A DNA stretch of 14,952 nt from assembly GCA_023299945.1 (NCBI GenBank), contig JALZVZ010000203.1:1-14952 (forward strand). Reading direction: 5' to 3'. This DNA is from Altererythrobacter sp. Its GTDB lineage: Bacteria > Pseudomonadota > Alphaproteobacteria > Sphingomonadales > Sphingomonadaceae. Below are positions 431 through 14,952 of the stretch, one piece after another. Made by a program: the position numbers and the translations under genes. How positions within the stretch are numbered: position 1 is the first letter of the stretch; each line of letters begins with the position of its first letter. The notes under the pieces were generated by a model. That model saw only the letters and a list, made by a program, of their open reading frames with translations. It ran no database searches and was not told the origin of the DNA.

Positions 431-1864
431 TTAAAGCACAAACGGAATCCGCAGGACCATACGCAGGTCGGTTGCATCATCGGTAAGGCCTGCTTCGATA
501 CCAAAATTGAGGCTGGTTTTTGGTGTCATTTTATAGGTTGTTCCAAAAAGGAAGCGGCCAATTTGCAAATCGCGAGAGGTCTGTTCGGTGGCTTCTGCTC
601 CCTCGGTCAGCGCGCGTGTCGTTGTCTGGGTTCCAAAGCCCCAGCTATGCGCATAGCCAAAATTGAGCGACAAGCGTGGGTTTAAGGCAAGGCCAACACC
701 TGCGCTGAACGATAGGGCATCGCCGGGATCAACTCGCTCAATCCGAACGGGCGGCAGCACTGCATCCACATCGCGCGCAAAATTCTTTGTGTAGCTCAAG
801 CTGCCGAACAAAACGCCTGGATCGCTTGGGACAATGGCGGTTAGGCCAGCCGTCGCACCCCAAAAACCGGAGCCGGTGGCGGCCTCGCTCGCTTCGCCAA
901 ATTGGTTGCGCTCCAGCGAAAATGGCCCTTCGCCTGTGGGAATAGCCACTTGGACATTGCCGATCACATAAGCACCAAAACCGCGCGGTGCGTGCAATTG
1001 TTTGCGCAGCTGTATCTCTACATCGCCGACACCATATCCATTGGCGCTATTGTCGATCTCGCGCGTTTCGCCATTTGCAGCAGGTCCGGCGACGGGCGCT
1101 AGGATTGACGTATTCCAGCGCGCCACGAAAGGCACGTCGATGCCGATTTCAATATCGTCAGTTAGGCCATATTGAAGGCCAACTTTTTGTGTGAAAACAT
1201 CTTGGCGGCTTTCATTGATGTCGAATGTCCCCACGAGCACGGATTCAACCACCTCGACCCCGCGGAAAACAGCGCGGTTGCGATCGGCGCGGGCATAGCT
1301 CCAAGCGACTTCGCCGCTGATCTTGCCCTTTTTGGTGATTGCACTGCCTTGGCGGCCCAATGCGGCGACTTCGGGTTGGCGGTCTGCGTCTTCGGGTGCG
1401 ACGCCAACGGTGCCTTGAGCAGCGGCTGCAGATGCGGATTGCGACGCTCCTGTTGGAGCGGCGGCAACACGCTGGACTGGTCCAGTAGGATTAGGAGCTG
1501 CGGCTGCGCGGATAGGTTTGGGCGTAGGTGTTTCGCCAAGCGCCAGCGCGAGCCTGCGCTCCATCGTGTCCAATTGACTTTGCTGTGCTTGAAGTGCGCT
1601 GATTTGCTGAGTTATGCTTGCCCGCTGCGCTGCGACTTCTGCCCGCAATTGGGTGAGTTCAGATGTGCCTGAGGACGACGGCTGCGCAGCTGCTTTAGCG
1701 GGGATAGGAGCAGGGGCCGGGACAGCAGCAAGCGGCTGCACAATTGTTTTGGACACAAATTGCATGTTCGCTGTTGGCGCTTCGGAATTTGTATCTTGCG
1801 CGCTAGCAGGATGCGCAACATTAGCTGCAGCCACAAGCACGAGACTTAGAAATGCGTTACGCAT
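431..1864 (-). CDS. FapF-like outer-membrane beta-barrel with N-terminal coiled coil
   Basis: A 477-residue secreted protein. Residues 1-22 form a signal peptide ending in A-S-A. A Pro/Ala-rich stretch follows, then a heptad-like Leu/Gln-rich coiled coil at about 66-108, a second low-complexity Ala/Pro linker (about 112-155), and from about 178 to the end alternating beta-strand sequence finishing in Phe-Val-Leu, as expected of an outer-membrane barrel. A segment near 199-215 (FRGVEVVESVLVG) is typical of barrels usually annotated only as 'transporter' or in the phenol MetA group. Signal peptide, coiled coil, linker and barrel in that order is the architecture of FapF, the trimeric pore that exports Fap amyloid subunits in Pseudomonas. 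It is the last gene of a five-gene operon, as fapF is. The FapF role is inferred from architecture plus neighbours; the barrel itself is clear. Confidence 0.8.
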   Translation of the reverse strand: MRNAFLSLVLVAAANVAHPASAQDTNSEAPTANMQFVSKTIVQPLAAVPAPAPIPAKAAAQPSSSGTSELTQLRAEVAAQRASITQQISALQAQQSQLDTMERRLALALGETPTPKPIRAAAAPNPTGPVQRVAAAPTGASQSASAAAAQGTVGVAPEDADRQPEVAALGRQGSAITKKGKISGEVAWSYARADRNRAVFRGVEVVESVLVGTFDINESRQDVFTQKVGLQYGLTDDIEIGIDVPFVARWNTSILAPVAGPAANGETREIDNSANGYGVGDVEIQLRKQLHAPRGFGAYVIGNVQVAIPTGEGPFSLERNQFGEASEAATGSGFWGATAGLTAIVPSDPGVLFGSLSYTKNFARDVDAVLPPVRIERVDPGDALSFSAGVGLALNPRLSLNFGYAHSWGFGTQTTTRALTEGAEATEQTSRDLQIGRFLFGTTYKMTPKTSLNFGIEAGLTDDATDLRMVLRIPFVL

Positions 1865-1902
1865 TATTTTTAACCACCCATTGGGTCAGCGATGACTAGA
1901 AA

Positions 1903-2412
1903 TTAGTCAAAACTGAAATTTGCTGTGTCCTCAGCAAGTGTGCCCAAAGTGGGGATAAGCGATCCAATTTGCCCAACCGCCATTCTCGATAAATCGAGAT
2001 CGATGGTTGTGACAGTCGTAATGGAACGATCATCGGCTGTATTGGTGATGATACTGCCAGTCGCGCGGCCCATCAGGTGAGAAACCTGAGTTCCAGGAAC
2101 TGAAATGGTTACACGGCTACTTGTATCATCGCCATCGGTTTGCACCGAAACGCCCTGAGACACTTGCTCAATCGATACAACAGGCCCGCCTTCGGCCAGC
2201 ACGTAAGAGGAGCGCAAAATCAGCTCTCCATCAATGCTGGTTTCTTGCAGAATGGCGATGTCCAAATCCAGGCCACCGGGGAATTCAAAGCCGCCGCGCT
2301 CACCCGCCAACGCAGCATCATCCATCGCGGCCACATCACCAAATGGTGTTTGTGCAGCGACAGGTGCAGCCAAGAAGGCAAACAATACAGCAATGTAGCG
2401 AATAAATCGCAT
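1903..2412 (-). CDS. Small secreted protein with GG leader-like motif, Fap-locus partner
   Basis: A 169-residue protein with a clean signal peptide (about 1-20, ending A-V-A-A) and no other membrane segment. At residues 29-42 it carries A-M-D-D-A-A-L-A-G-E-R-G-G-F, which resembles the double-glycine sites cut by C39 peptidases and matches the spacing of a motif in the protein encoded at 3135-3533. The rest alternates hydrophobic and polar residues like a beta-rich periplasmic or surface protein and ends in F-S-F-D. The ATG lies one base after the TGA of the C39 peptidase gene, and its GGAGAA ribosome binding site lies inside that gene's last codons, so the two are probably co-translated. By position it may correspond to one of the accessory Fap proteins (FapA or FapE), but I cannot assign it by sequence. 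The barrel gene begins 38 bases after its stop. Confidence 0.7.
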   Translation of the reverse strand: MRFIRYIAVLFAFLAAPVAAQTPFGDVAAMDDAALAGERGGFEFPGGLDLDIAILQETSIDGELILRSSYVLAEGGPVVSIEQVSQGVSVQTDGDDTSSRVTISVPGTQVSHLMGRATGSIITNTADDRSITTVTTIDLDLSRMAVGQIGSLIPTLGTLAEDTANFSFD

Positions 2413-2413
2413 C

Positions 2414-3133
2414 TCAAAATTCTCCGTAGCCCGGCGCAGTAAGGTTCAGCGCTTGCTGACTTACCGGCTGGAACATGCCCTGATCCGCCCCAAATCCAAT
2501 GACGCGGCCCCATTGCGCGTCCGAATTAAAGGAAAGATGGTTAATATTTACTCCACCTGTCACGACAAAATAGACGCCGTTCCAAGTCTTCTCAAATTCG
2601 TCGCGGTCCATTCTGCGCAAACCAAGCGAAGGATCTCCGACCAGAACGAAGCCGTCCTCAACGCCCTTAACGACTACAAAATGGCGGTATCCATTGGGTG
2701 CAATCAACGCGATGCCAGGCGTCTTGGCCTTGACCACTTGGTCAAGCGAAACCTTATAGCCATTTGCGTCAATTCCCTTAGCTCCAAGGTAACGCTTCAT
2801 ATCCAATAAGGAGAAACCCTGCTTTTGGATCGCAGCACGATCGCCATCGCGCCACATGCCCTGAAAAACTGTATTTTCGCCGCTCTTCTGACCGTAATGA
2901 TAGGTCATCAAAGTGGCGAGAGCCGCCGAGCCGCAGCTGAAATCAAACTGCTGGCGGACAACCGTATCATAGCGGGTTTCCACCATGCTGCGCGGAGCGG
3001 TTTCCAGTGCCAGACCGCCTGCATGCGTGGTAAGTTGGAACCCGCCATCATTCGCAGGCACGGCAGCGCACGCCGGCAGGAGCAATGCCCCTGCCGCCGC
3101 CGCTACAATGCGCAAGGCACCGCGCCACAGCAT
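2414..3133 (-). CDS. FapD-like stand-alone C39 cysteine peptidase, probable lipoprotein
   Basis: Papain-fold C39-family peptidase without ABC-transporter domains, as in FapD. I start it at the ATG at 3133-3131 (239 aa), one base after the upstream stop (TAA-T-ATG); the frame is open further upstream to an ATG at 3187, but that would overlap the previous gene by 53 bases and place a charged tail before the signal sequence. From this start, an Arg then a hydrophobic run leads to L-L-P-A-C, with Cys22 a possible lipidation site. The catalytic set is complete: Gln61 and Cys67 in Q-x5-C-G, His151 (Y-R-H-F), and Asp167 (G-D-P). C39 enzymes cut after glycine pairs in leader peptides; two neighbouring proteins carry such candidate sites. 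It probably acts in the periplasm on fibre subunits or accessories. That it is an active C39 peptidase is well supported; the substrate is inferred. Confidence 0.85.
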   Translation of the reverse strand: MLWRGALRIVAAAAGALLLPACAAVPANDGGFQLTTHAGGLALETAPRSMVETRYDTVVRQQFDFSCGSAALATLMTYHYGQKSGENTVFQGMWRDGDRAAIQKQGFSLLDMKRYLGAKGIDANGYKVSLDQVVKAKTPGIALIAPNGYRHFVVVKGVEDGFVLVGDPSLGLRRMDRDEFEKTWNGVYFVVTGGVNINHLSFNSDAQWGRVIGFGADQGMFQPVSQQALNLTAPGYGEF

Positions 3134-3134
3134 A

Positions 3135-3533
3135 TTATTCAGCAGGTACCGCGATATTGATTTGGACCGACGCATTGATCGCAACATTGTTGCCAGTGTT
3201 TGCGTTCAAAATCGTTATGCCGTTTATATTGCGAAAGGCATTGTCGCTCAGCACTATGGTGCCAGTGTTGGAATTGTCGCCAACGCTATTGCCTTCGACA
3301 CTGTTGGCCTGGTCCGATTGCGTGAACTGGTTCACATCTTCGCGGCCAGCAATCGTCGCAAGTTTTTTGTCAGTGATTGCGTTTGCTTCGGCAAACATAG
3401 GCGCTGGTGCAGCCTGTGTTTGCGCCTCGGGCGAAGAAGCTTCAACAACAGGCGCTGCTCGCTTCTCTTCGGCCAAAGCAGGCGGTGCAATCAACGCGCA
3501 CCCCAGCATCAAAGCCATGCTAAACTTTGTCAT
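3135..3533 (-). CDS. Secreted minor fibre subunit candidate (Fap B/E-like)
   Basis: A 132-residue protein with a signal peptide (about 1-21, ending A-L-A), a Pro/Ala/Glu-rich stretch (22-48), then I-T-D-K-K-L-A-T-I-A-G-R at 53-64, which resembles a C39 leader site with the second glycine replaced by Arg. The remainder is rich in Asn, Gln, Ser and Thr with short alternating hydrophobic residues, as in amyloid subunits. Residues 98-129 closely match the C terminus of the larger repeat protein encoded upstream: N-A-F-R-N, then Gly, L-N, N-T-G and N-A-S-V are shared in order. This suggests that the two proteins use one common export or assembly signal, or form one fibre. A good ribosome binding site (AAAGGGA, six bases before the ATG) supports the start. 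It could be a nucleator, minor subunit or FapE-like fibre component; the exact role is inferred. Confidence 0.75.
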   Translation of the reverse strand: MTKFSMALMLGCALIAPPALAEEKRAAPVVEASSPEAQTQAAPAPMFAEANAITDKKLATIAGREDVNQFTQSDQANSVEGNSVGDNSNTGTIVLSDNAFRNINGITILNANTGNNVAINASVQINIAVPAE

Positions 3534-3564
3534 AAATAGTCCCTTTGGGCGAGTTACCTCAGGC

Positions 3565-3595
3565 GTCTGCGGCCACCGGTAAGTGGGCCGCAGAC
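3565..3595 (-). promoter_or_regulatory. Perfect 10-bp intercistronic stem-loop after the first subunit gene
   Basis: GTCTGCGGCC (3565-3574) pairs perfectly with GGCCGCAGAC (3586-3595) around an 11-base loop. It sits 15 bases after the stop of the repeat protein and before the ribosome binding site of the next gene. No T-run follows on the transcribed strand, so it is not a canonical intrinsic terminator. A 3' hairpin that slows mRNA decay or attenuates read-through, giving more of the first subunit than of the downstream machinery, is the favoured interpretation. Confidence 0.7.
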
Positions 3596-3609
3596 AATCC
3601 TGAAACGAC

Positions 3610-4191
3610 TTAGTTTACGTCAAAGTTATCTGTCGAAACAGCGATGGTAACGCTCGCATTTTGCGAAGCGCCAACGCCGGTGTTCTGGTTCAACGCGTTC
3701 ATTCCGGAATAGTTGCGGAATGCGTTACCTGAATTGTTCAGCGTATTGGCATAAGACGCGCCATCTTCAACATCGCCGTAACTTACATCGACACCAGTGA
3801 CGACGTTGGACAACGTGGTTTCAGCAACAATCGCGTTATCATCAAACGTGTAGTTATCAGAGAAGGTCAGATTCGCGGTGTAATTGTCCGACAGATCATC
3901 GAAGCTATCGGTGATTGTCCGGTCCGAATTGTCGTTGTTGCTGTTATTATCAGAATTATCGTCAAAGCTATCATTGAACTGATGATCTGAATTGTCGTTG
4001 TGACTGTTAAAGTCACGGTTGTCATCAAAACTGTCCGTGGCCACAGTTCTGTCTGAAACATCAACATCGGTCACATCGACATCTGTTACATCAATGTTGG
4101 TTACATCAATATCAACGCCGTCAGCATCCTGAGCGAATGCAGAAGTGCTGGTTGCGAGCAGAGCCGCGGCAACAAATAATTTGGTCTTCAT
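3610..4191 (-). CDS. Secreted Asp/Asn/Ser-rich repeat protein, candidate major amyloid subunit
   Basis: A 193-residue protein, first gene of the Fap-like operon. A signal peptide (1-20, A-F-A | Q-D) precedes a five-residue-period run at 26-47 built on D-V-T-D-V. Next come three imperfect repeats of about 21-22 residues at 48-69, 70-90 and 91-105, each with a D-S-F-D-D core and, in the first two, N-D-N-S-D endings. A less regular middle (106-155) has two S-D-N-Y-T or Y-T-F-D-D echoes. Residues 156-185 match the C-terminal block of the next gene's product. It has no Cys and is very acidic. Repeats, signal peptide and co-operonic C39 peptidase and barrel are what FapC/FapB subunits show, but the repeat sequence itself is not one I recognise from Pseudomonas. 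The Asp-rich repeats might also bind calcium. A strong AGGAGA ribosome binding site fits high expression. Confidence 0.75.
   Translation of the reverse strand: MKTKLFVAAALLATSTSAFAQDADGVDIDVTNIDVTDVDVTDVDVSDRTVATDSFDDNRDFNSHNDNSDHQFNDSFDDNSDNNSNNDNSDRTITDSFDDLSDNYTANLTFSDNYTFDDNAIVAETTLSNVVTGVDVSYGDVEDGASYANTLNNSGNAFRNYSGMNALNQNTGVGASQNASVTIAVSTDNFDVN
3877..4050 (-). repeat. Three ~63-66 bp imperfect coding repeats (D-S-F-D-D units)
   Basis: Codons 48-69, 70-90 and 91-105 of the candidate major subunit form three diverged direct repeats, the last one partial. Shared cores are D-S-F-D-D followed by an Asn/Ser/Asp-rich tail ending N-D-N-S-D in the first two units. The DNA here is visibly more AT-rich than the surrounding genes because of Asn, Asp and Ser codons. 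Three imperfect repeats separated by linkers is also the number seen in Pseudomonas FapB and FapC, though the repeat sequence differs. Confidence 0.75.
4051..4117 (-). repeat. 15-bp tandem repeats coding for a D-V-T-D-V pentad run
   Basis: Four consecutive 15-base units, each starting ACATC on the + strand (4058, 4073, 4088, 4103), code on the minus strand for a five-residue period of alternating Asp and Val/Ile with Thr or Ser. The units differ at several bases but keep the amino-acid pattern, which points to selection on the protein after an expansion. The repeat lies just after the signal peptide of the candidate major fibre subunit. Confidence 0.8.
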
Positions 4192-4609: not shown

Positions 4610-6031
4610 CTAATTGACCAACCGCGTCGAAGGAAAGCTGGCATGCCAACCAAACCAAAAGGCTCTATGCGAAGGCAATCGAGCTAGCGTGCGACCATCC
4701 GTCGCTACGAGTTGGTCTTCTTCCAGCGTCCAATTCACATCTGTACTGTCTCGAAGAGAAACTTCGCCATCATACTGCGTGAAGCGAACTTCCTCATGAT
4801 CATAGACCCGAGAGGAGCCAGCAGAATCGGTAACAATGAGAAAGTCCTGAAGCCCGATGCTATCCGAGTATAGCGGGTTCCTACTGAGGAAATCTGTGTC
4901 GATTGCGAGCTCGCCGCCCGTGAATCGTAATGCGACCACTTCTTGTTTATTTTCCAGTCGGCGATCATCGAACGGCGTGTTGAACATCAGGTCATCTGTC
5001 GCAAAGTAATCCTGGTAGGCCACGCCTTCCCCATAATCGCGCTTGTGCCCAGTATTGAGCGAAAGAACTAATGTGTCCGGATGGCGTTTGCGCCAATTGC
5101 CCCATGTTGTCGTGACGACTGCTTCGCGCTCCAGTTCAATGCCCGAGCCTACCAGTGGACCGACAACCGGAGTTCCCTGAAAGGTGTTCCAAAGCGATTG
5201 GGTTTCGCGATCATACATCAGCTTGTTTGAACGATAAAGAAAACCCGATGTGCCTAGCTCGAAGTGCTGATCGCCGAGCTTGGTTCGGTAGGGAATTACG
5301 GTGCCGCACAAGGTACAATAGACCCCAGCAATCTCCTCGCCGCCAATGTCGTTGATGAACATTTCGTGCCACGCGAGAATGCGTTTTGGATATGCATGCG
5401 CTTCGCCATTCACGACAATCCCGAAGACGATATTGTCATCGTCCAGATAGTCCGCCTCATTTGCAGGCAACATTTCCGGATTGCGCAGCGGCGGAATGCC
5501 ATCCTGAAGGACGCCGCCCCATACGATTTCGTCCAAACGGATGTCGGTGCTGTCCGTTCGCCCTTTAAAATAGCGCCCAAACTTGGGATCAATCGCCGAA
5601 TACAAGGTCGCCTTGAACTGGGCGTAGTCCTCTGTGATCAATTCGGGCTGCTGCCATAGCCAACTGTTCCAAGCGAGATAGTCGTGCCCAATGTCTTGCT
5701 GGGTCTTCTCGCGCAATAGTACAAAAATTTCCGCTCTCACACGCGGGTCGCGCGTAAAACGAACCGTTTCGAGCAACTGCGGGATGTATGCTGGTGACCA
5801 CGAGGCGCGGATTTCCTGCAGCGCATCCCCTGCGAGGAGAGGGTCATGTGACTGCATCAAGTCGAAGAAAGTCAAGAATTCCACTGACGCGGGTGCAGTT
5901 TGGCTTTCTTGCGACTCCGCATTCGTGGGTAAGGGCGCAAACGAGCCAATCGCGAAGATCCCAACAATGCCTGTTGTGGCGACCACACGCCTACCCATTG
6001 ATGTGCGCAGCGCTTTCAAATTCCGTATCAT
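4610..6031 (-). CDS. DUF3179 domain-containing secreted protein
   Basis: A 473-residue protein with an N-terminal signal or anchor sequence (hydrophobic at about 16-33, cleavage near A-E-S at 38-40), a helical region (about 50-150) and a DUF3179 core (about 160-350). The core has the family hallmarks: I-V-F-G-I-V-V-N-G-E near 201-210, H-A-Y-P near 212, W-H-E near 221, the C-T-L-C-G-T motif (Cys239, Cys242), F-x-L-G-T-S-G-F-L near 257, and M-Y-D-R-E-T near 272 followed by L-W. The biochemical role of DUF3179 proteins is not established; the CxxC-like pair suggests metal or disulfide chemistry. It starts 16 bases after a thioredoxin-fold gene, probably one operon, and has an AAAGG ribosome binding site about 11 bases before the ATG. 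The family call is firm; the function is unknown. Confidence 0.88.
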   Translation of the reverse strand: MIRNLKALRTSMGRRVVATTGIVGIFAIGSFAPLPTNAESQESQTAPASVEFLTFFDLMQSHDPLLAGDALQEIRASWSPAYIPQLLETVRFTRDPRVRAEIFVLLREKTQQDIGHDYLAWNSWLWQQPELITEDYAQFKATLYSAIDPKFGRYFKGRTDSTDIRLDEIVWGGVLQDGIPPLRNPEMLPANEADYLDDDNIVFGIVVNGEAHAYPKRILAWHEMFINDIGGEEIAGVYCTLCGTVIPYRTKLGDQHFELGTSGFLYRSNKLMYDRETQSLWNTFQGTPVVGPLVGSGIELEREAVVTTTWGNWRKRHPDTLVLSLNTGHKRDYGEGVAYQDYFATDDLMFNTPFDDRRLENKQEVVALRFTGGELAIDTDFLSRNPLYSDSIGLQDFLIVTDSAGSSRVYDHEEVRFTQYDGEVSLRDSTDVNWTLEEDQLVATDGRTLARLPSHRAFWFGWHASFPSTRLVN

Positions 6032-6047
6032 TTCAGCGATTACCTTT

Positions 6048-6551
6048 CTAGCCAGACAAAAGCGCCCGCATCTCAGCCTCGTTCAAAGGCGAGCCACGAC
6101 CAACTTCTTGATCCCCGCGAAACACCGCAAATTGGCCGTAACCAACCAAACCCATGTCGTTCCAGACGCTACGCGGGGTCTCTTCATCAATGCGAAGCAA
6201 AACCAGATTTCGGTAGCGTCTTTCCCGCCGCAAGCGCTCCACGATAGGAGCCTGAATCCGGCATGGCGCACACCAGTCAGCATACGTTTCCACCAAGATT
6301 AGACGGCCTTCGGCTTGCGCTCGGTCGAACCTCGCCTGCGAGAAGCTGGATGTATCTGAGCGGGGCACTGAAACTTCTCGCGCACTGGTGACATCCTGGG
6401 TGAATGGCAGTGCTAGCAGCGCTAGCGCTGCGATTGGAAGCAGGCGTCTCGTCCAGCTGTTGGCCAACTTTCCGGCAGTGGATTTAGTGATTGAACGCGA
6501 TCGTAATTCGGTGATTTTGTCGCTCTGCGCCATGACTCTGTTTTCAACCAT
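6048..6551 (-). CDS. Membrane-anchored or secreted thioredoxin-fold protein
   Basis: A 167-residue protein: a charged N terminus, a hydrophobic segment at about 37-52 (signal or anchor), then a thioredoxin-like domain with W-C-A-P-C at 93-97 (Cys94, Cys97) after the strand L-I-L-V-E-T-Y-A-D. The position of the usual cis-proline loop reads Y-G-Q-F-A-V-F (about 138-144) with no Pro, a variation seen in some thioredoxin-family proteins. It probably reduces or transfers thiols outside the cytoplasm, and its neighbour's two cysteines are an obvious partner (inference). Two starts are possible, 6551 and 6533 (seven codons in); neither has a strong ribosome binding site. It is divergent from the metal operon starting at 7175 and separated from it by 623 bases. 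Confidence 0.85.
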   Translation of the reverse strand: MVENRVMAQSDKITELRSRSITKSTAGKLANSWTRRLLPIAALALLALPFTQDVTSAREVSVPRSDTSSFSQARFDRAQAEGRLILVETYADWCAPCRIQAPIVERLRRERRYRNLVLLRIDEETPRSVWNDMGLVGYGQFAVFRGDQEVGRGSPLNEAEMRALLSG

Positions 6552-7531: not shown

Positions 7532-7550
7532 ATTGGACGGATACACAAAT

Positions 7551-9725
7551 ATGACAAAATTACGCCTCGCTCTTTCGACTTCGGGTCTCGCGATTGTTGC
7601 GCTTGGCGCTGCCCCTGCTTTGGCGCAGAATGCCAGTGCAAATGATGAAGCAGCCACCACCGGCAATGAGATTATCGTAACCGAGCGCCGCGCCTATCGT
7701 GGTAATTTTGAAGAGGTGGAAATTCCTCAGGCGAACCAAACGCTTGATGCAGCAATTCTGCAGGATATCAATGCATTGGATCTCAATACAGCTTTGGATT
7801 TGTCGGCTTCTGTTTCTCGGCAAAACAATTTTGGCGGATTGTGGAACAGCTTCTCGATCCGAGGCTTTTCGGGCGACATCAACTTGCCAAGCAGCTTTCT
7901 CGTTAATGGCTTTAACGCTGGGCGCGGCTTTGGCGGCCCGCGTGATATTTCGGGAATTGAGGCTATTGAAGTTCTCAAGGGCCCACGCTCTGCGGTCTAT
8001 GGACGCGGTGAGCCAGGCGGCACAATCAATTTGATCACCAAACGTCCGCAAATGGAGACATCGGGCTATGTGCAGCTTCAGGGCGGCTCGTTCGATTTTT
8101 ATCGCGGCGATGTCGATCTACAGACCACTGTAGGTGACAATGTTGGCGTGCGTGTCGCAGGATTTTACGAGGATGCAGGCAGTTTCCGCGAGGGCAAAGA
8201 AACCAAGAAATTCGGATTCTACCCATCGGTTCGCGCCGATTTGGGCGACAGTTCGACCCTCACCTATGAGCTGGAATATACAAACCAAGAATTGCCGCAG
8301 GATCGCGGCGTCATTTTCTCAGAACAGTTCGGGTTCTCACCAATTGAGCTTTTCACAGGCGAACCCGATGCGCTCGTTGATATTGAAGTCCTAGGTCATC
8401 AGTTAGAGTTCCAGCACGACTTTGACGGTGATTGGGGTATCCTCGTCGGTGCTGGATACCGAGAAACGTCTCTGATCGGGGACGCTTATGAGAATAATTT
8501 CGGCAGCCGTCAGCCCTATTTGGTCGATGGCGAGACGATTTCGCGCTTCTTCCGTTTCCGCGATTATGAGGCAGACTATTTGGCTCTACGCGCCGAAGTG
8601 AATGGAGAGTTCGACACTGGCGGCATTCGTCACCGTGTTATTTTCGGTGTGGATTATGATGAGTTTGATAATGATCAAGTGGCAAACCGTTTTCGCCAGG
8701 CCGGTATTAACGGGGCGGCCAGCAGCACTCTTGATCCAGAGGTTTATTTGCTGCTCGATGTAGACAACCCGCAATATGGCATATTCCCGCGGCCGGATGC
8801 TGCCGCTCAGATTGATCGGTTGGAAAAAACTGGTGGGTTTGGGCTCTATATTCAAGATCAGATTGACCTAACCGACCGGCTTCAAGTGCGTTTTGGCGGA
8901 CGCTTTGACGATTTTGATCAAGAGCTCATTAACCGCCGCAGCGACCCTGCTGCTGTGAGTGAATCTTCCAATTCCGCTTTCTCGCCGCAAGCGGGCCTTC
9001 TCTACCGCGCGACCGATGGCATCAGCTTATATGCGTCCTATGGCGAAGGCATTCGCCAATTGTCCGGCGCTGATTTCGAAGGAAATTCGTTTGATGCTAA
9101 CAAATCGACCTCGTTCGAAGCAGGCATCAAGCTTGACCTTGCGGCCGTTTTCCCAGGCGTTCAGGGTTCAGCCTCTGCAACCGTATTTGACGTCGATCAG
9201 AGCAATATTCTCATCTTCGATAGCCGCCCAGAGGCTGCCGGTGAGTTGATCCCAGCAGGTGAGGCGCGCAGCCGCGGCCTCGAATTGGATGCTAATGCCA
9301 GCTTTGATAGCGGCCTGCGTCTTTGGCTTTCTTACGCCTACACCGATGCGGAATACACCAATAGCGGGACGGACTCCGCGACCTTCACGACCTTTGATGC
9401 CGGCGAACCACTGATCAATTCTCCTGATCATCAGTTGAGTGTGCAAGCATCTCAGAGCTTTGAAATCGCAAATGTTGGCGCGCAGATTGGCGGCGGTCTT
9501 TTGTATGTGGGCGAAAGAAACGGTGAAGTCGGGGCTGATTTTGATTTGCCAGATTACACGACTGTACGCTTGTTCGGTCAGATTGAGCCTGTAGAAAACA
9601 TTGCGATCAGGCTCGATGTCGATAATCTGTTCGATGAGACATTTTTCACGGACTCTTTTGCTAGTGTTTGGGTGCAGCCTGGTGCGCCTAGGACATTCCG
9701 CGTTTCAGCGCGGTATAGCTTTTAA
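7551..9725 (+). CDS. TonB-dependent outer-membrane receptor (metal or metallophore)
   Basis: A 724-residue receptor. I start at the ATG at 7551; a TTG six codons upstream is less likely. Residues 1-25 form a signal peptide (A-L-A | Q). A TonB box E-I-I-V-T lies at about 40-44. The plug domain follows, with S-I-R-G-F near 102, V-L-K-G-P-R-S-A-V-Y-G-R-G near 141-153 and G-G-T-I-N-L-I-T-K-R-P, the usual end of the plug. The rest is a 22-strand-type barrel ending R-Y-S-F with a terminal Phe. The plug resembles siderophore-type receptors, but that does not fix the ligand. It lies between a MerC-like gene and an ABC system (next ATG 17 bases after its stop). With the Zur-like operator, a zinc or zinc-chelate ligand is proposed; an iron siderophore or other metallophore is the alternative. 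Confidence 0.9.
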   Translation: MTKLRLALSTSGLAIVALGAAPALAQNASANDEAATTGNEIIVTERRAYRGNFEEVEIPQANQTLDAAILQDINALDLNTALDLSASVSRQNNFGGLWNSFSIRGFSGDINLPSSFLVNGFNAGRGFGGPRDISGIEAIEVLKGPRSAVYGRGEPGGTINLITKRPQMETSGYVQLQGGSFDFYRGDVDLQTTVGDNVGVRVAGFYEDAGSFREGKETKKFGFYPSVRADLGDSSTLTYELEYTNQELPQDRGVIFSEQFGFSPIELFTGEPDALVDIEVLGHQLEFQHDFDGDWGILVGAGYRETSLIGDAYENNFGSRQPYLVDGETISRFFRFRDYEADYLALRAEVNGEFDTGGIRHRVIFGVDYDEFDNDQVANRFRQAGINGAASSTLDPEVYLLLDVDNPQYGIFPRPDAAAQIDRLEKTGGFGLYIQDQIDLTDRLQVRFGGRFDDFDQELINRRSDPAAVSESSNSAFSPQAGLLYRATDGISLYASYGEGIRQLSGADFEGNSFDANKSTSFEAGIKLDLAAVFPGVQGSASATVFDVDQSNILIFDSRPEAAGELIPAGEARSRGLELDANASFDSGLRLWLSYAYTDAEYTNSGTDSATFTTFDAGEPLINSPDHQLSVQASQSFEIANVGAQIGGGLLYVGERNGEVGADFDLPDYTTVRLFGQIEPVENIAIRLDVDNLFDETFFTDSFASVWVQPGAPRTFRVSARYSF

Positions 9726-9742
9726 CGAAAAGGCATGGTTCA

Positions 9743-10462
9743 ATGACCTCTCCATTGGAAGCCCGCTCGCTTTCGCTCATTCGTGAAGGCAATGACGTTC
9801 TTGACGGGGTTTCCTTCACGGTCGCGCAGGGCGAAATATTCGCTCTGCTGGGCGGTAATGGCGCGGGCAAATCCAGCACGCTTCTCACCTTTCTGGGGTT
9901 TCTGGAACCCTCGGACGGAGACGTGCTAGTTCATGGGGAAAATGTTGGCAGCGATATTGCTGCGGCGCGGTCTGCCATTGCCTATTTGCCAGAGGCCGCA
10001 TCACTCTATGGCCATATGACAGCTTACGAGAACTTGGACTATTTTCTCGATCTGGCGGGCAAATCAGCTGGGCGCAGCGACATTGATGCTGCGCTCGACC
10101 GTGTGGCTTTACCAGACGAAGCGCGGACACGGCGTTTGCAATCCTATTCTAAGGGTATGCGGCAAAAGACTGCTATCGCTCTAGCGCTATTGCGCGAAAC
10201 GCCCATTTTGCTCCTGGACGAGCCCACTTCTGGGCTTGATCCGGTTGCAATTGATGAGTTTCATGATTTGGTCACGGCGCTGGCAAAGGGCGGTCAGACA
10301 ATCCTGATGGTGACTCATGATGTCTATGGCGCATGTCAGGTTGCAGACCGCATTGGATTGCTGCGAGGCGGACAGCTTGTTGGCAGCTTCACGGCTGAGA
10401 ATGGCGAGCGGATTGATACCGAAACCGTCCATGCAGCGTTTGCGCAGCGCCAGTCAGCATGA
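9743..10462 (+). CDS. ABC transporter ATP-binding protein (ABC-2 / DUF3526 type)
   Basis: A 239-residue cytoplasmic ATPase subunit. Walker A is G-G-N-G-A-G-K-S (37-44). The Q-loop region reads L-P-E near 82-84 with Glu where Gln is usual, common in ABC-2-type ATPases. The signature is Y-S-K-G-M-R-Q (135-141), Walker B is I-L-L-L-D-E (155-160) followed by P-T-S-G-L-D, and the switch histidine is His192 (T-H-D). All key residues are present, so it should hydrolyse ATP. Its TGA overlaps the ATG of the first permease (ATGA), so the subunits are translationally coupled. This class is better known for export or for maturation of surface and copper proteins than for import, which is odd beside a TonB receptor. 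Confidence 0.92.
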   Translation: MTSPLEARSLSLIREGNDVLDGVSFTVAQGEIFALLGGNGAGKSSTLLTFLGFLEPSDGDVLVHGENVGSDIAAARSAIAYLPEAASLYGHMTAYENLDYFLDLAGKSAGRSDIDAALDRVALPDEARTRRLQSYSKGMRQKTAIALALLRETPILLLDEPTSGLDPVAIDEFHDLVTALAKGGQTILMVTHDVYGACQVADRIGLLRGGQLVGSFTAENGERIDTETVHAAFAQRQSA

Positions 10463-11895
10463 GCTCCGCAATTCGTATAGCGCGCGAGGAATGGCGCCTT
10501 TGGCTGCGTTCTAAAGTCGTGATTGCCGCTGCATTGATTATCGCAGTGCTGCTGGCAGCAACCAGCTTTTTGACCGCGGGCCGCGTGGTCGATGAGCAAT
10601 CGCAGCGCTTGGATAAGCAAGTGGCCGCCGAGGAAGCCTTCTTTTCACAGCCTGATCGCCACCCTCACCGGATGGTTCATTACGGCCATTATGCCTTCCG
10701 CCCACCGCCGCCTCTCGCCGCATTTGAACCCGGCGTTGATGCGGTTACCGGCCAATCCATTTTCCTTGAAGGGCACAGGCAGAACACAGCAATGTTCGCC
10801 GATACAAAGGCGAGCGCTGACTTAGGCGGATTTGCAACGCTTTCGCCTGCAAACCTATATCAGCTTCTCTTGCCGCTATTGCTGATTGTCCTTGGCCATG
10901 CACTGTTCTTGCGAGAGCGGGAGAGCGGAACTTTGGCGGTATTGCTTGCACAAGGGCAGTCCGGCGTGAAGCTGGCAATGGGCAAAGGGCTTGCTCTGCT
11001 CTCCGTCATCGCAGCGCTTATGATTCCGCTGGTTGCAGTGGCTATATATTCAATCAGCCTCGGCGAAAGCGCGATGGCCGCGTCGTCTCTGGTGTTCAGC
11101 TATTTCATCTATCTCTGCATTTGGGGCGCTCTTGTTCTTGCCGCATCGATCATCCTCAAACAGCGCGCCGTATCGCTTGGAGTGCTCGTTTTTGTCTGGC
11201 TGTTTGCCGCGCTTATCGTGCCGCGTTTCGCGATCAATGCTAGTAGCGCGGCCATTGATGCGCCGGGCAAGATTGAAAGCGATCTGATAATGCTCGCAGA
11301 GCAGCGCAAACTTGGCGATGGCCACAATGCCGCCGACCCCGCGTTCCAGCGCCTCCAAGCGCAAGTGTTGGAGCAATATGAGGCAGAAACGATCGAAGAG
11401 TTACCGATCAATTGGCGCGGGATTGTCGCATCCTATTCGGAAGCAGAATTGACCGACCTGCTCAATGAACATGCTGAAAACCGCATGGGCCTTGAGGCCA
11501 GTCAATCCCGCATGTTTGATCTGTTCGGCGTGATATCGCCCACCATTTCCATTGGTTCTGTATCGCGGACATTGTCTGGAACAGATTTGGCGACGCACCA
11601 TCGGTTCCTGCGCGAAAGTGAGACTTTGCGGTTCAATTTCGTGCAAGCGGTAAATCAAGTGCATGTTGAAGATCTCGACTACGCGAGAGATTTGAACCGC
11701 AATGCCAGTGATGAGGCTGGGCAATTGGCGCGGGTCAGTGCGGATAGTTGGAAAGTGCTCGAGGAATTTCGTTTCGTATCGGACGCCAGCGGCGACCGCT
11801 TGAGCAGAGCAGCCTTATCATTGGGCGTAATGATCGCTTGGCTGCTGGCGTCGGTCTCCATTGTCTTTCTGGCTGCAAGAAGGGTGCGGATGTGA
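10459..11895 (+). CDS. ABC-2 type permease 1, DUF3526 family
   Basis: A 478-residue membrane protein. A first membrane helix at about 19-38 is followed by a large periplasmic loop with a His-rich stretch (H68, H70, H74, H77 in R-H-P-H-R-M-V-H-Y-G-H-Y), the Pro-rich R-P-P-P-P-L, and the family pattern E-P-G-V-D ... G-Q-S-I-F-L-E-G-H-R-Q-N. Helices follow at about 134-151 (then E-R-E-S-G-T-L), 178-199, 207-231 and 237-257, then a second long extracytoplasmic region and a last helix near 450-472. These are hallmarks of DUF3526 permeases. The clustered histidines could bind metal, but the H-Y-G-x-Y-A-F core is a family feature. It overlaps the ATPase gene by four bases and the second permease by one base (TGATG). 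Confidence 0.88.
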   Translation: MSSAIRIAREEWRLWLRSKVVIAAALIIAVLLAATSFLTAGRVVDEQSQRLDKQVAAEEAFFSQPDRHPHRMVHYGHYAFRPPPPLAAFEPGVDAVTGQSIFLEGHRQNTAMFADTKASADLGGFATLSPANLYQLLLPLLLIVLGHALFLRERESGTLAVLLAQGQSGVKLAMGKGLALLSVIAALMIPLVAVAIYSISLGESAMAASSLVFSYFIYLCIWGALVLAASIILKQRAVSLGVLVFVWLFAALIVPRFAINASSAAIDAPGKIESDLIMLAEQRKLGDGHNAADPAFQRLQAQVLEQYEAETIEELPINWRGIVASYSEAELTDLLNEHAENRMGLEASQSRMFDLFGVISPTISIGSVSRTLSGTDLATHHRFLRESETLRFNFVQAVNQVHVEDLDYARDLNRNASDEAGQLARVSADSWKVLEEFRFVSDASGDRLSRAALSLGVMIAWLLASVSIVFLAARRVRM

Positions 11896-13166
11896 TGCTA
11901 AGCAATCTGGCTCGCGAGACCCGTTTTCTTGCCAAGGATCGCGGCGCTTTATTCTGGTTGGCGCTCGCGCTTACTTTGTCTGTAATTGCCGTTTCCTTCG
12001 GTGTTGCCGAGGTGCGCGAACAGCGCAGCACCATTGCGACTCTAACCAAGGAAGACGCAGCTGATCGTCAAAATGCCTTGAAGACACAGGAAGATTGGGG
12101 CGGCGCGGCCTATTATGCGCTCCATTTCACCTATGCCCCGCCATCAGACTTTGCTTTTGCCGCCATGGGACAGCGCGATAGCAGCCCGTGGAAGCACCGG
12201 ATCAAAATGCTCGCGCTAGAAGGTCAAATTCATGAAGCGGATACGCGCAATGCGGACTTTGGATTGGTGGGGCGGTTTGACTTTGCCTTTCTAGCAGCCT
12301 GTGTCGCGCCTTTGCTTTTGATCCTGCTCCTCTATGATTTGCGCGCCTCGGAACGGACTGCAAGACGCCATGATTTGCTCGTCGCAACCGCTGGATCATC
12401 CTCGCGATTGTGGTTTCCAAGAGCGTTCGTGCGTGTCGCGGCGCTTGCGCTATTATTGCTCATCCCCTTGTGGATAGCGGCCATCATGCAAGGCACATCC
12501 TTCGTCATCACCGCGCAAGCAAGCATGATATTGGTTGGCGCATTGCTTGTGTGGTGGGTCATCACTGAATTGATCAGCCGGATCGATGCTTTGCCATCCA
12601 TATTGCTGACATCAATGATCGGTGTTTGGCTGGCTTTGGCGATCCTCATGCCAGCCATTTCTAAAGCGGCAATCGATGCGAATAACCCTGTGCCTGATGG
12701 CGGCGAGATTTTGCTGCTCCAGCGCGAAACAGTGAATGATGCTTGGGATTTGCCCAAGGACGACACGATGCTTCCATTCGCTGCGCTGTACCCTGAATTG
12801 AGTGACCATGTGCAAATCGACGAGGGGTTTGAGTGGAAATGGTATTACGCCTTCCAGCAGATGGGTGATGAAAAGGCCTCCCCTCTTTCTCAGCAATATC
12901 GCGGTGCGCGGCTCGCGCGCGACAGGCAGGCAGGGTTGGTGTCTTATTTGTCGCCCGCGTCTTTTGTGGAACGCGGTTTTGAGCGTTTGGCAGGCACGGA
13001 TGCCGCCTCAATGATCGCTTATGAGGATAATGTGCGCAATTTTCATGCAGGCTTGCGCGCGTTTCATTATCCGCTGATGTTCCCCGAAGTGCCTTATGAT
13101 GCGGCGCTTTTGAATGATCTGCCGATTTATGATCCAAATCCGTCTTCGCACGATCCGTCACCATAG
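11895..13166 (+). CDS. ABC-2 type permease 2, DUF3526 family
   Basis: A 423-residue membrane protein. I start at the ATG at 11895, whose first base is the last base of the previous stop (TGATG); the frame is open upstream to 11748, but that would lie inside permease 1. The first helix is at about 19-37, then a periplasmic loop with Y-Y-A-L-H-F-T-Y-A-P-P, parallel to the H-Y-G-H-Y-A-F-R-P-P-P of permease 1 but without the histidine cluster. Helices follow at about 130-147, 178-197, 207-229 and 234-254, then a long hydrophilic tail ending in a Pro/Asp-rich segment with no final helix, unlike permease 1. The pair probably forms an asymmetric heterodimer with the ATPase at 9743-10462. The substrate is unknown; context suggests metal acquisition. 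Confidence 0.87.
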   Translation: MLSNLARETRFLAKDRGALFWLALALTLSVIAVSFGVAEVREQRSTIATLTKEDAADRQNALKTQEDWGGAAYYALHFTYAPPSDFAFAAMGQRDSSPWKHRIKMLALEGQIHEADTRNADFGLVGRFDFAFLAACVAPLLLILLLYDLRASERTARRHDLLVATAGSSSRLWFPRAFVRVAALALLLLIPLWIAAIMQGTSFVITAQASMILVGALLVWWVITELISRIDALPSILLTSMIGVWLALAILMPAISKAAIDANNPVPDGGEILLLQRETVNDAWDLPKDDTMLPFAALYPELSDHVQIDEGFEWKWYYAFQQMGDEKASPLSQQYRGARLARDRQAGLVSYLSPASFVERGFERLAGTDAASMIAYEDNVRNFHAGLRAFHYPLMFPEVPYDAALLNDLPIYDPNPSSHDPSP

Positions 13167-13402: not shown

Positions 13403-14827
13403 TTAGGCGGCGCCCCAGCGTTCCAATTTTCGATATATGGTCGATGGGCTTACATCCAATTGCCGCGCGGCCTTGCAAATGTTGCCGGCACTTTGCGAAA
13501 TGGCTTGTTCAATTGCCATTCGCTCTATCTGTTCCAAAGTCATACCAGTAAAGTCTGCCGCAGCTGGGTTCGAATTTTGAGCCGGCGGCCAATTCTCTGA
13601 CGCAGTCGGCGGCACAATGGCGCCTGATGCGACGGGCTCATTTGCGACAGGAACGAGCCTTGAACTGGTTAGATCGATCTTTGTCCCACTAGCAGTGACG
13701 ATCGCACGGCGCAGGGAATTCTGCAGTTCACGCACGTTTCCTGGCCAAGAGTGTTGGGTCAGGAATGCTTCGCTTTGGGCAGTAAAGCCCTTCATTTCGC
13801 GCTGCTCTTCTTTCGCAATTCGGTTTGCCAATTCCTTGGCGATCAGAACAACATCCTCGCCGCGGTCCCTCAAGGGAGGCAGGGAAAGTGGTATGACATT
13901 CAGCCGATAAAACAAATCTTCACGGAACCTGCCGGCTGAAACCTCAAGCTCAGGATCACGATTGGTCGCGCATATTATACGAACATCGACCGGTTCGGCT
14001 GCGGATGAACCAACACGCTGAATCATTTCTGTCTGCAAAAAGCGCAGCAATTTCACCTGTAGCTTAAGGTCCATCTCGCAAATTTCATCGAGAAATAGAG
14101 TGCCTCCATCTGCGGCTTTGGCTGCACCAATGCGGTTTTCTACCGCTCCTGTGAAAGCGCCTTTCACATGACCGAACAATTCAGATTCGAGCAGGTTTTC
14201 CGGGATCGCCCCGCAATTGATGGCCACGAATGGGCCTTTGCTGCGCTTACTCGTGGCGTGAAGCGCCTCAGCTGTGACTTCCTTCCCTGTTCCGCTTTCT
14301 CCGGTTACAAAAACCGTTGCCTTTGAATTGGCGACACTTTCGATCGTACGGAACACGATTTGCATCGGCTTTGAACTACCAATGAAACCGTGAAAGTTGT
14401 CATTATTTTCAAAGTCGGTTTTGTCAGGCTCGGTAGCGGCCGTTGCATCTGATTTGCTTCCTTGATCAGCAGCTCGGCTCACGGTTGTTAGCAGCCTTGT
14501 GCCCGAAACCGGCTTCACCAAGAAATCATAAGCGCCCAGCCGCATTGCAGCGATGGCACGGGACAATGAACCGTCTGCTGTCACCACCACAACAGAAGGA
14601 AAGCCATCAGCGTCTTTTAGACTATCAAAGATCGTCAGTCCGTCTCCGTCTGGCAATTGGAGGTCGAGTAAGACAGTATCGAATTCTTGCGAAGCAAGCG
14701 CATTGCGCGCCTCGGCCAAATTTTCACAAAGCGTAACCTCATGCCCCGCCTCTTCCAATTGCGCCGAATAGCCCAAGGCCAGGGACGGGCTATCTTCTAC
14801 GATGAGGACTTTTGCGTTTTCCATCAT
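13403..14827 (-). CDS. Sigma-54-dependent response regulator, LuxO/NtrC-like
   Basis: A 474-residue three-domain regulator. The receiver domain (about 5-122) has acidic E-D at 11-12, phospho-acceptor Asp55 (V-L-L-D-L-Q-L-P-D-G-D-G), Thr83 and Lys105 (F-L-V-K-P). The AAA+ domain has Walker A G-E-S-G-T-G-K-E (about 175-182), an intact G-A-F-T-G-A sigma-54 contact loop (222-227), Walker B T-L-F-L-D-E (about 242-247) followed by I-C-E-M-D as in LuxO-type proteins, and R-E-D-L-F-Y-R-L-N-V. A C-terminal Fis-type helix-turn-helix lies at about 437-470. All residues for phospho-control and sigma-54 activation are present. I start at the ATG at 14827, four bases after AGGA and overlapping the upstream stop (ATGA); the next codon is also ATG. 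Its targets are not visible here; I found no convincing -24/-12 site in the window. Confidence 0.93.
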   Translation of the reverse strand: MMENAKVLIVEDSPSLALGYSAQLEEAGHEVTLCENLAEARNALASQEFDTVLLDLQLPDGDGLTIFDSLKDADGFPSVVVVTADGSLSRAIAAMRLGAYDFLVKPVSGTRLLTTVSRAADQGSKSDATAATEPDKTDFENNDNFHGFIGSSKPMQIVFRTIESVANSKATVFVTGESGTGKEVTAEALHATSKRSKGPFVAINCGAIPENLLESELFGHVKGAFTGAVENRIGAAKAADGGTLFLDEICEMDLKLQVKLLRFLQTEMIQRVGSSAAEPVDVRIICATNRDPELEVSAGRFREDLFYRLNVIPLSLPPLRDRGEDVVLIAKELANRIAKEEQREMKGFTAQSEAFLTQHSWPGNVRELQNSLRRAIVTASGTKIDLTSSRLVPVANEPVASGAIVPPTASENWPPAQNSNPAAADFTGMTLEQIERMAIEQAISQSAGNICKAARQLDVSPSTIYRKLERWGAA

Positions 14828-14952
14828 GCAATCCTGAACTGCGCCGTTTTGCCTGAAGGATCTTTTTCGAGCCAAGTGATGGCGCGTTCATCACCGAAAT
14901 GCGCCATACAGCCTTGGACCAAACCATAAGCGATATGCGCGAATGGGCGGTG
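14824..14952 (-). CDS. C-terminal tail of upstream gene, possibly haem-NO-binding type (partial)
   Basis: Reading the minus strand from the window edge gives 42 residues ending R-I-A and a TGA at 14826-14824. That stop overlaps the response-regulator ATG (ATGA), so both are probably one translationally coupled operon. The tail includes H-I-A-Y-G-L-V-Q-G-C-M-A-H-F-G-D-E-R-A-I and ends F-R-I-A. This pattern (G-L-x-x-G-x-x-x-H-F-G-[DE], then a loop and a final F-x-I) resembles the C-terminal end of haem-NO-binding (HNOB) domain proteins, but 42 residues are too few to be sure; a related 4-vinyl-reductase-type fold is another option. That it is coding is well supported by the overlap and open frame; the family is a low-confidence guess. 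Confidence 0.6.
   Translation of the reverse strand, partial: HRPFAHIAYGLVQGCMAHFGDERAITWLEKDPSGKTAQFRIA

Follow-up and report, generated by a model that had tools for sequence, protein, structure and literature searches.

The operon

The stretch of DNA considered here (14,952 nucleotides of Altererythrobacter sp., contig JALZVZ010000203.1; hereafter the window) contains an operon of five genes, called S1, S2, D, E and F in the following (Table 1), which a preliminary description of the sequence had taken for a Fap-like functional-amyloid export locus in a probable alphaproteobacterium. According to a list of open reading frames (ORFs), the five genes fill positions 4191 to 431 of the minus strand and are transcribed in the order S1-S2-D-E-F, such that the description of five tightly spaced genes on one strand, all lying within 431-4191, is borne out. 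With the start of D placed at ATG 3133, the intergenic gaps read from the sequence are 76, 1, 1 and 38 bp, and with gaps of 1 bp S2 and D, as well as D and E, are necessarily stop-to-start neighbours; a start of D at ATG 3187 would run into S2. Signal peptides can be read from the sequence on all five proteins. The host is indeed a sphingomonad, and among the matches listed the nearest D is that of an uncultured Erythrobacter, at 86%. As set out below, the operon is real and conserved, and it is Fap-like by virtue of D and F; judged by the sequences of its subunits and by the phylogeny of D, it is nevertheless assessed as not being a Fap operon.

Table 1. Genes and features of the operon (positions in the window; residues numbered in each protein)
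Feature	Residues	Positions	Strand	Remarks
S1	193 aa	3610..4191	minus	Sec-exported D/N/S-rich repeat protein; leader element not seen; from the ORF list
S2	132 aa	3135..3533	minus	small secreted protein; position that of a minor subunit
D		2414..3133	minus	FapD-type C39 cysteine peptidase; first in-frame ATG at 3187
E	169 aa	1903..2412	minus	small secreted protein; FapE position
F	477 aa	431..1864	minus	FapF-type outer-membrane export barrel with periplasmic coiled coil
S1 C-terminal block	156-186	3634..3726	minus	NAFRNYSGMNALNQNTGVGASQNASVTIAVS; common to S2
S2 leader-like element	53-64	3342..3377	minus	ITDKKLATIAGR; I at -12, L at -7, I at -4, G at -2, R at -1
S2 C-terminal block	98-129	3147..3242	minus	phmmer, hhalign, alignment
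D lipobox LPAC	19-22	3068-3079	minus	Cys22 invariant in 15 B1 sequences
D Gln61	61	2951-2953	minus	invariant in the same 15 B1 sequences
D nucleophile Cys67	67	2933..2935	minus	invariant column, 15 aligned B1 sequences
D His151	151	2681-2683	minus	invariant in the same 15 B1 sequences
D Asp167	167	2633-2635	minus	invariant in the same 15 B1 sequences
E leader-like element	30-41	2290..2325	minus	MDDAALAGERGG; predicted cut after G41 (codon 2292-2290)
E C-terminal block	118-141	1990..2061	minus	TGSIITNTADDRSITTVTTIDLDL; hhalign E vs S2, 97.6%
F coiled-coil helix	66-108	1541..1669	minus	model; pLDDT 91-96 in blocks 71-110
F transmembrane barrel	182-476	437..1321	minus	model; family-model matches

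The peptidase and the barrel

D matches the NCBIfam FapD model at 9.4e-45 (152.6 bits, below the equivalog cut-off of 330) and Pfam C39 at 3.2e-20, and F matches the FapF model at 2.1e-38. The comparison with FapD and FapF models that the preliminary description had proposed thus comes out in its favour, since among family models the peptidase and the barrel score best with these two; the second-best models are FilB for D (3e-36) and FilC for F (2.1e-18). D had furthermore been described as a stand-alone C39 peptidase with complete catalytic residues. In this regard, Cys67, His151, Asp167 and Gln61, whose catalytic roles we take over from C39 peptidases in general, are all invariant in 15 aligned sequences of the B1 type defined below (a set that includes the window's own). 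D is probably a lipoprotein, anchored by its lipid in the periplasm, given the lipobox present when it starts at 3133, a feature that the preliminary description does not mention. Similar patterns occur in 15/15 B1 sequences and in 12/12 representatives of the alphaproteobacterial Fap type, in 19/72 from other class-B systems (the broader group of which B1 is part), in 2/11 canonical representatives and in none of five of the B2 type.

The predicted model of F contains an N-terminal helix, the coiled-coil helix, a linker of low confidence and the barrel from residue 182, which together with the signal peptide agrees with the architecture given in the preliminary description. As regards a helical plug in the barrel, the model has only short turns (158-161 and 171-173), within a stretch of lower confidence. 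The FapF trimerisation motif R-h-x-x-h-E was not found in the coiled coil of the window's F. It is present in 31/87 class-B, 12/12 alphaproteobacterial Fap and 4/11 canonical F proteins and, with this distribution, is not diagnostic of Fap. As a separate observation, the F linker behind the coiled coil has an RG motif (examples are L041, at residues ~110-120, L084 and L173): it is LRGRY-like in 12/12 alphaproteobacterial Fap barrels and occurs twice, as LDxLRGTG, in some Oxalobacteraceae-type barrels; from sequence, such motifs may be a second FapD site.

The secreted proteins

S1 is presumed to be the main secreted subunit. A homologue is found by phmmer in 15/16 B1 loci, and the remaining one, L050, has a 503-aa ORF in its place. 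The S1-position ORFs of relatives can be longer than 600 aa (621 aa in L045), with N/S/D/T-rich or G-rich repeats, and many of them end in a similar block. Neither S1, S2 nor E has a family above its cut-off in Pfam or NCBIfam, and none of the 100 proteins listed in a search for S2 homologues, the window's own included, carries a Pfam domain.

What the three proteins have in common is a C-terminal block. That S1 and S2 share one had been noted in the preliminary description, and it is recovered both by phmmer (E = 0.0022 over the block, with S2 as query) and by hhalign (96.0% probability for the S1 tail against S2 family profiles). The block extends to E, whose profiles match those of S2 over it at 97.6%. 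The class-B E profile also matches alphaproteobacterial FapE over the leader together with the part that follows, and canonical FapE over the C-terminal block, both at 96.8%; all such profile probabilities can be inflated by short repetitive segments. Against the FapE model itself, E of the relative L059 matches at 0.0032 over its residues 40-82, i.e. the leader region, and the window's E has no match at E <= 1.

Distribution of the gene set

Among 199 genomes of the window's family, FapD matches fall into 12 at 208-240 bits and 22 at 128-166 bits, with 10 further weak ones (24-41 bits) inside long ORFs, and FapF matches into 12 at 321-405 bits, 22 at 105-160 bits and four weak ones. All 34 strong FapD places are paired with a strong FapF nearby (in G117 the pair is split over two contigs), and strong FapD and strong FapF occur in the identical 33 genomes. 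The window belongs to the lower-scoring group. Sixteen D loci of this survey, the window's included, are of the type here called B1, with the order S1-S2-D-E-F; by phmmer, S2 is found in 16/16, E in 15/16 (the other contig ends) and F in 16/16 (one of them on a separate contig). Five loci are of a B2 type, in which S2-D-E are faced by F on the opposite strand, with E identified by phmmer in 4/5 and by position in the fifth. In the same family, L049 represents a third D-F type, the subunits of which have other N/Q repeats and the small E-position protein of which carries SDEELSTKRGG.

A profile of S2 detects 21 genomes out of the 199. These coincide with the genomes that have a class-B D-F pair, that of L049 excepted, and the match lies beside D (compared by hand); in G147 there is also a second, weak match within S1. 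In other words, the neighbourhood survey that the preliminary description had suggested finds the set co-occurring, S2 being confined to genomes with this type of D-F pair.

Beyond the family, a scan of named genomes gave at least 581 relatives of D, of which the best 80 were kept (the clades of the 581 were not sorted). These 80 are mostly from Pseudomonadota (Sphingomonas, Massilia, Halomonas, Methylobacter, Acidithiobacillus and others) and also include two Geobacteraceae and single metagenome-assembled genomes labelled Anaerolineae and Ignavibacteria, the former of which may be misbinned because its E leader resembles that of an alphaproteobacterial bin. F lies in the stretch at 74 of the 80 loci (47 on the same strand, 27 on the opposite one), and 62 have an E pick with the motif [LM]...RG[GRK] discussed below. 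The B1 operon also occurs in a cultured environmental sphingomonad, Sphingomonas jejuensis DSM 27651 (L107). On plasmids, the gene set is present in records of Polymorphobacter megasporae and Croceicoccus marinus, annotated on both as hypothetical except for the C39 peptidase and, in Croceicoccus marinus, a 'transporter'. What emerges is that FapD-FapF-like pairs in many Pseudomonadota are accompanied by a second gene set, S1, S2 and E, which lacks annotation.

Upstream of S1, a conserved gene of ~350-400 aa occurs in 11 of 12 B1 loci compared (L045-L047, L050, L051, L053, L055, L057, L058, L060 and L061, with two copies in L045). By reading, it resembles a sensor-LuxR-type regulator; it was not noticed in the window, where no search was aimed at it.

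Relationship to Fap

The FapB, FapC and FapE models find nothing at E <= 1 among the window's proteins; for the FapB nucleator, a search confined to these proteins gave no match to S1 or S2. The FapC model has no match in the window's own genome either (90% complete), and the controls G121, G041 and G475 do match. Compared with Fap repeats (criterion for FapC: GN-x-G-N-x2-AG-x2-NQQ-x-N), profiles of S1 and S2 reach probabilities of 0.9% and 6.7%, with no alignment, in keeping with the earlier remark that the subunits are unlike the Pseudomonas repeats. Moreover, a tree of 114 of the 119 D representatives places canonical and alphaproteobacterial Fap together in one 22-row clade (support 99/98) and the window among the other 92 rows, where a 30-row sphingomonad clade (100/99) contains all 15 B1 rows. 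The tree has a midpoint root and its sequence sets were gathered with different queries; L092, L093, L096 and two sequences without SCG[SA]A were left out, and FilB was not placed.

In each of twelve loci of the same family (L032-L043), one ORF or more carries at least two Fap-type repeats. The one locus of these that was checked against the subunit models, L038, has neighbours matching FapB at 86.8, FapC at 75.2 and FapE at 68.8 bits, all below cut-off; the control L066 gives 388 bits with FapC and 346 with FapE, above cut-off. In the loci read, an extra gene of ~200 aa lies between E and F, with weak peptidoglycan-binding-type matches in L038. These operons share with the window's the bacterial family, homologues of D and F, the lipobox of D (12/12) and the leader of E (e.g. 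DSELADMRGK), but differ in their Fap-repeat ORFs (12/12) and in FapF scores of 321-405 bits as against 105-160 in the window's group. Both types can occur in one genome, since G121, of the same genus as the window, has one locus of each (L038 and L059). The proposal of Fap in an alphaproteobacterium therefore fits L032-L043 rather than the window. As for the more general proposal of a Fap-like locus, its FapD/FapF-type pair and co-occurring gene set stand, but the FapB, FapC and FapE models have no match among the window's proteins and D falls outside the Fap clade.

With Fap of Pseudomonas (FapABCDEF) the operon has in common the FapD-type C39 peptidase, the FapF-type barrel with coiled coil, a leader-like element in E and the order subunits-D-E-F. 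It differs in that no FapB/FapC-type repeats were found and the operon has no sixth (FapA-like) gene, in the separate clade of D, in the lipobox of D, a pattern found in only 2/11 canonical representatives, and in the end of the class-B E leader, which is GG where that of FapE is GR or GK.

A leader-like element in E and S2

Behind the Sec signal peptide, both E and S2 contain an element in which positions -12, -7 and -4 ahead of G-G/R/K are hydrophobic; in E the consensus after the signal peptide is about x(L/V)xDxELxxMRGGF. E picks were chosen by position and signal peptide only, the motif not being used. A pattern based on the classical double-glycine leader consensus, [DE]L..[ILVM].G, occurs in 52/134 distinct E (mean in shuffled sequences 3.5, maximum 10) and in 14/138 S2-position picks (mean 1.9, maximum 7), and combined with a GG/GA/GS ending in 31/134 E (mean 1.1). 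The motif [LM]...RG[GRK] occurs in 94/116 E representatives (mean 1.23, maximum 6 in 500 shuffles) and in 0/119 D as a control. A pattern spanning -12 to -1 is found in 73/113 E (mean 1.14) and 36/92 class-B S2 (mean 0.40, maximum 3), compared with 0/88 S1-position ORFs, 2/110 F, which is chance, and 1/115 D. When the 94 E windows are anchored on RG[GRK] and the next residue, hydrophobic residues occupy -12 in 90%, -7 in 99% and -4 in 67%, with 0-13% at each position in between; for S2 the figures are 92% at -12, 100% at -7 (used as anchor), 48% at -4 and 21% at -15. According to PMC7018657, the hydrophobic residues bound by C39 domains lie at -4, -7, -12 and -15, and cleavage follows GG, sometimes GA or GS; of these four positions, three are mostly hydrophobic in E.

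The element is conserved within and between groups. In S2, the 15 aligned B1 sequences all have L58 and G63, and in 99 of the 100 S2 homologues (P0099 left out) the weighted frequencies are 100% for L and 91% for G. With a slightly wider pattern, the motif is present in 11/11 canonical FapE, 12/12 alphaproteobacterial FapE and 80/90 class-B E. It is the residue at -1 that changes: R (73%) or K (27%) in canonical FapE, K (100%) in alphaproteobacterial FapE and G (92%) in class-B E; among the 70 of 85 S2 with the motif it is G in 43%, R in 29% and K in 13%. In the predicted model of E (mean predicted local distance difference test score, pLDDT, 79.4), a helix at 32-38 directly precedes R39-G40-G41, with a pLDDT of ~68 in this stretch. 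On sequence grounds, then, E, S2 and canonical FapE appear to carry a conserved double-glycine-type leader-like element, which is a new observation.

Some of these counts reflect how the sequences were gathered. Because ORF calling relied on simple scripts, the picks for E, S2 and S1 include some errors. Seven S2 picks judged to be wrong ORFs were dropped from the profile comparisons and the counts at -1 and kept in the register and the -12 to -1 counts; the per-clade counts at -1, the register and the -12 to -1 counts omit L049, L092, L093 and L096. The profile comparison and alignment A2 (56 of 65 listed relatives; alignment A3 has 45 of 61) omit the E picks without the motif, 10/90 in class B, and the invariance of G40 in A2 is in part selected thereby.

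Several points weigh against taking the element as a cleaved leader. The motif [LM]...RG[GRK] and the later patterns were devised on the very sequences counted, and the strict GG/GA/GS pattern is at chance in S2 (4/138, shuffle maximum 4). In E, position -15 is hydrophobic in only 36%, with -18 so in 55% instead, and in the E of the window -8 is occupied by A and -4 by E. The ten class-B E picks without the motif count here as well, and some of them may be wrong ORFs. In S2 the residue at -1 is R, K, M or Q in 58% as against G in 43% (rounded), and the cut motifs named in the available text of PMC7018657 are GG, GA and GS only. In PMC5557850, too, the Fap proteins are described as having no canonical C39 sequences, although GG and GA motifs are noted in FapE. 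Finally, a conserved stretch near the signal peptide could serve docking and not cutting.

Proposed mechanism and alternatives

The reading that we consider likely is that of a Fap-like but non-Fap secretion system contained in one operon, with leader cleavage by D, exit through F and assembly outside the cell. All five proteins would cross the inner membrane by Sec. In the periplasm D, probably lipid-anchored, would read the double-glycine-type leader left on S2 and E after removal of their signal peptides and cut it after the G or R at -1. Cut S2 and E, together with uncut S1, would then exit through a trimer of F, and outside the cell the common C-terminal blocks would let the three assemble, with S1 as the bulk material and S2 and E as nucleator or anchor. 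The scheme is built on homology, the gene set, its co-occurrence, the leader register and the common C-terminal block; from these we infer the cleavage, the export and its order, the assembly, the F trimer and the anchoring. That S1 forms amyloid fibres is about an even bet.

The docking alternative, in which the LxxxRGG element stays uncut and binds E and S2 to D or to the coiled coil of F, with D a chaperone, is unlikely, if not strikingly so. The variation at -1 (G, R, K, M, Q), which a cut site would not normally show, would suit it, as would the existence of C39-like domains that are non-catalytic chaperones (PMC6173800); against this, D retains its Cys, His, Asp and Gln throughout the aligned B1 sequences, and in Pseudomonas FapD and its Cys are needed for Fap secretion, which the mutant C38A abolished (PMC5557850). 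Rather than a distinct system, the operon might also be a fast-diverged true Fap operon in which S1 and S2 are FapC and FapB with drifted repeats, forming amyloid as in Pseudomonas. The order of roles matches (subunit, subunit, D, E, F), strong variability of FapC is documented (PMC3792158), and in profiles E and FapE have the leader region and the C-terminal block in common. This origin is nonetheless quite improbable in view of the well-supported Fap clade (99/98) outside which D falls, the want of any FapB, FapC or FapE family match in the window, the low probabilities of S1 and S2 against Fap repeats, and the presence of both kinds of locus in G121.

Two other known systems pair a C39 peptidase with a FapF-type channel. 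The Neisseria nap island (NapP/NapF) has the same peptidase-barrel pair and exports peptides of the GG type (PMC11798529), and E and S2 are small; it is, however, very doubtful that the operon likewise exports small bioactive peptides in place of structural cargo. The nap peptides are cationic, below 10 kDa and reported to act in autolysis, and structural repeat cargo is not described for nap in the available text of PMC11798529, whereas the secreted proteins of the window have 132-193 aa and S1, which reaches 621 aa in L045, is repetitive and has a C-terminal block that is conserved. A Fil pilus locus of the Acinetobacter type (FilA/FilB/FilC) is barely credible, even with FilB and FilC as the second-best models for D and F and with a similar leader, MDDAALSAATGQ, in the FilA of L178, where a signal peptide precedes an LxxxxGQ element. 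D and F match the Fil models more weakly than those of FapD and FapF. Moreover, FilA is a DUF6160 protein (the one in L178 matches at 37.1 bits), and no DUF6160 match above the cut-off of 27 is seen for S1, S2 or E (the best, S2, has E 0.053 and 14.2 bits); nor, at E <= 0.1, does L178 match any of the class-B profiles of S1, S2 and E.

Implications for FapD of Pseudomonas

The preferred reading, of a leader cut by D, may extend to Fap itself. The target of FapD was called unclear in 2017 (PMC5557850), and a review of December 2025 states that FapD is thought to process the N-terminus of FapE and periplasmic FapF (PMC12822426); the available text of these two sources specifies no cut site. No FapE peptides were reported from about the first 70 residues in Pseudomonas (PMC5557850). 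In the canonical FapE of L066 the tryptic peptides before the predicted site (e.g. DQELATLR) are of ordinary size and the one after YVMPGR would be very long; the missing N-terminal peptides would thus fit removal of a leader, as judged on the FapE of L066 and not on that of strain UK4. A cut after GR or GK would itself be masked in tryptic mass spectrometry, because trypsin cleaves at the same R or K.

It seems somewhat better than an even chance, on these sequence patterns, that Fap, Fil, nap and the window's family make up one class, defined by Sec export, a second leader cut by a periplasmic C39 peptidase and a FapF-type exit, and that the main substrate of FapD in Pseudomonas would be FapE, with cleavage behind the GR or GK of LxDxELxxLRG(R/K)Y, i.e. 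before the Y. The conserved site, which lies in the register that C39 domains read, gives in this way a concrete prediction for the FapD cut site, testable by single substitutions.

Related loci and neighbouring genes

Fil is a possible further member of this class of secretion systems. In L178:3176-6404 the FilA-position protein (DUF6160) has LxxxxGQ after the signal peptide, and by reading so do similar neighbours of other C39-barrel pairs (L092, L093). On a plasmid of Acinetobacter sp. SAAs474 (L177:1435-5531), a C39 peptidase is found together with a barrel that weakly matches FapF (39.8 bits), beside three small secreted proteins that all have LSRQEMKDTQGA after the signal peptide, a textbook-like GA leader; this locus looks nap-like.

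In the window itself, a DUF3179 protein adjoins a secreted thioredoxin-like protein at 4610-6551, upstream of the operon on the same strand. At 7533-13166 a TonB-dependent receptor is followed by an ABC ATPase and, in a row, two long proteins that are putative permeases of the ABC-2 type (the permease label is weak and comes from a single low NCBIfam match), and a sigma-54-type response regulator (receiver, AAA and Fis domains) lies at the contig end, at 13403-14875.

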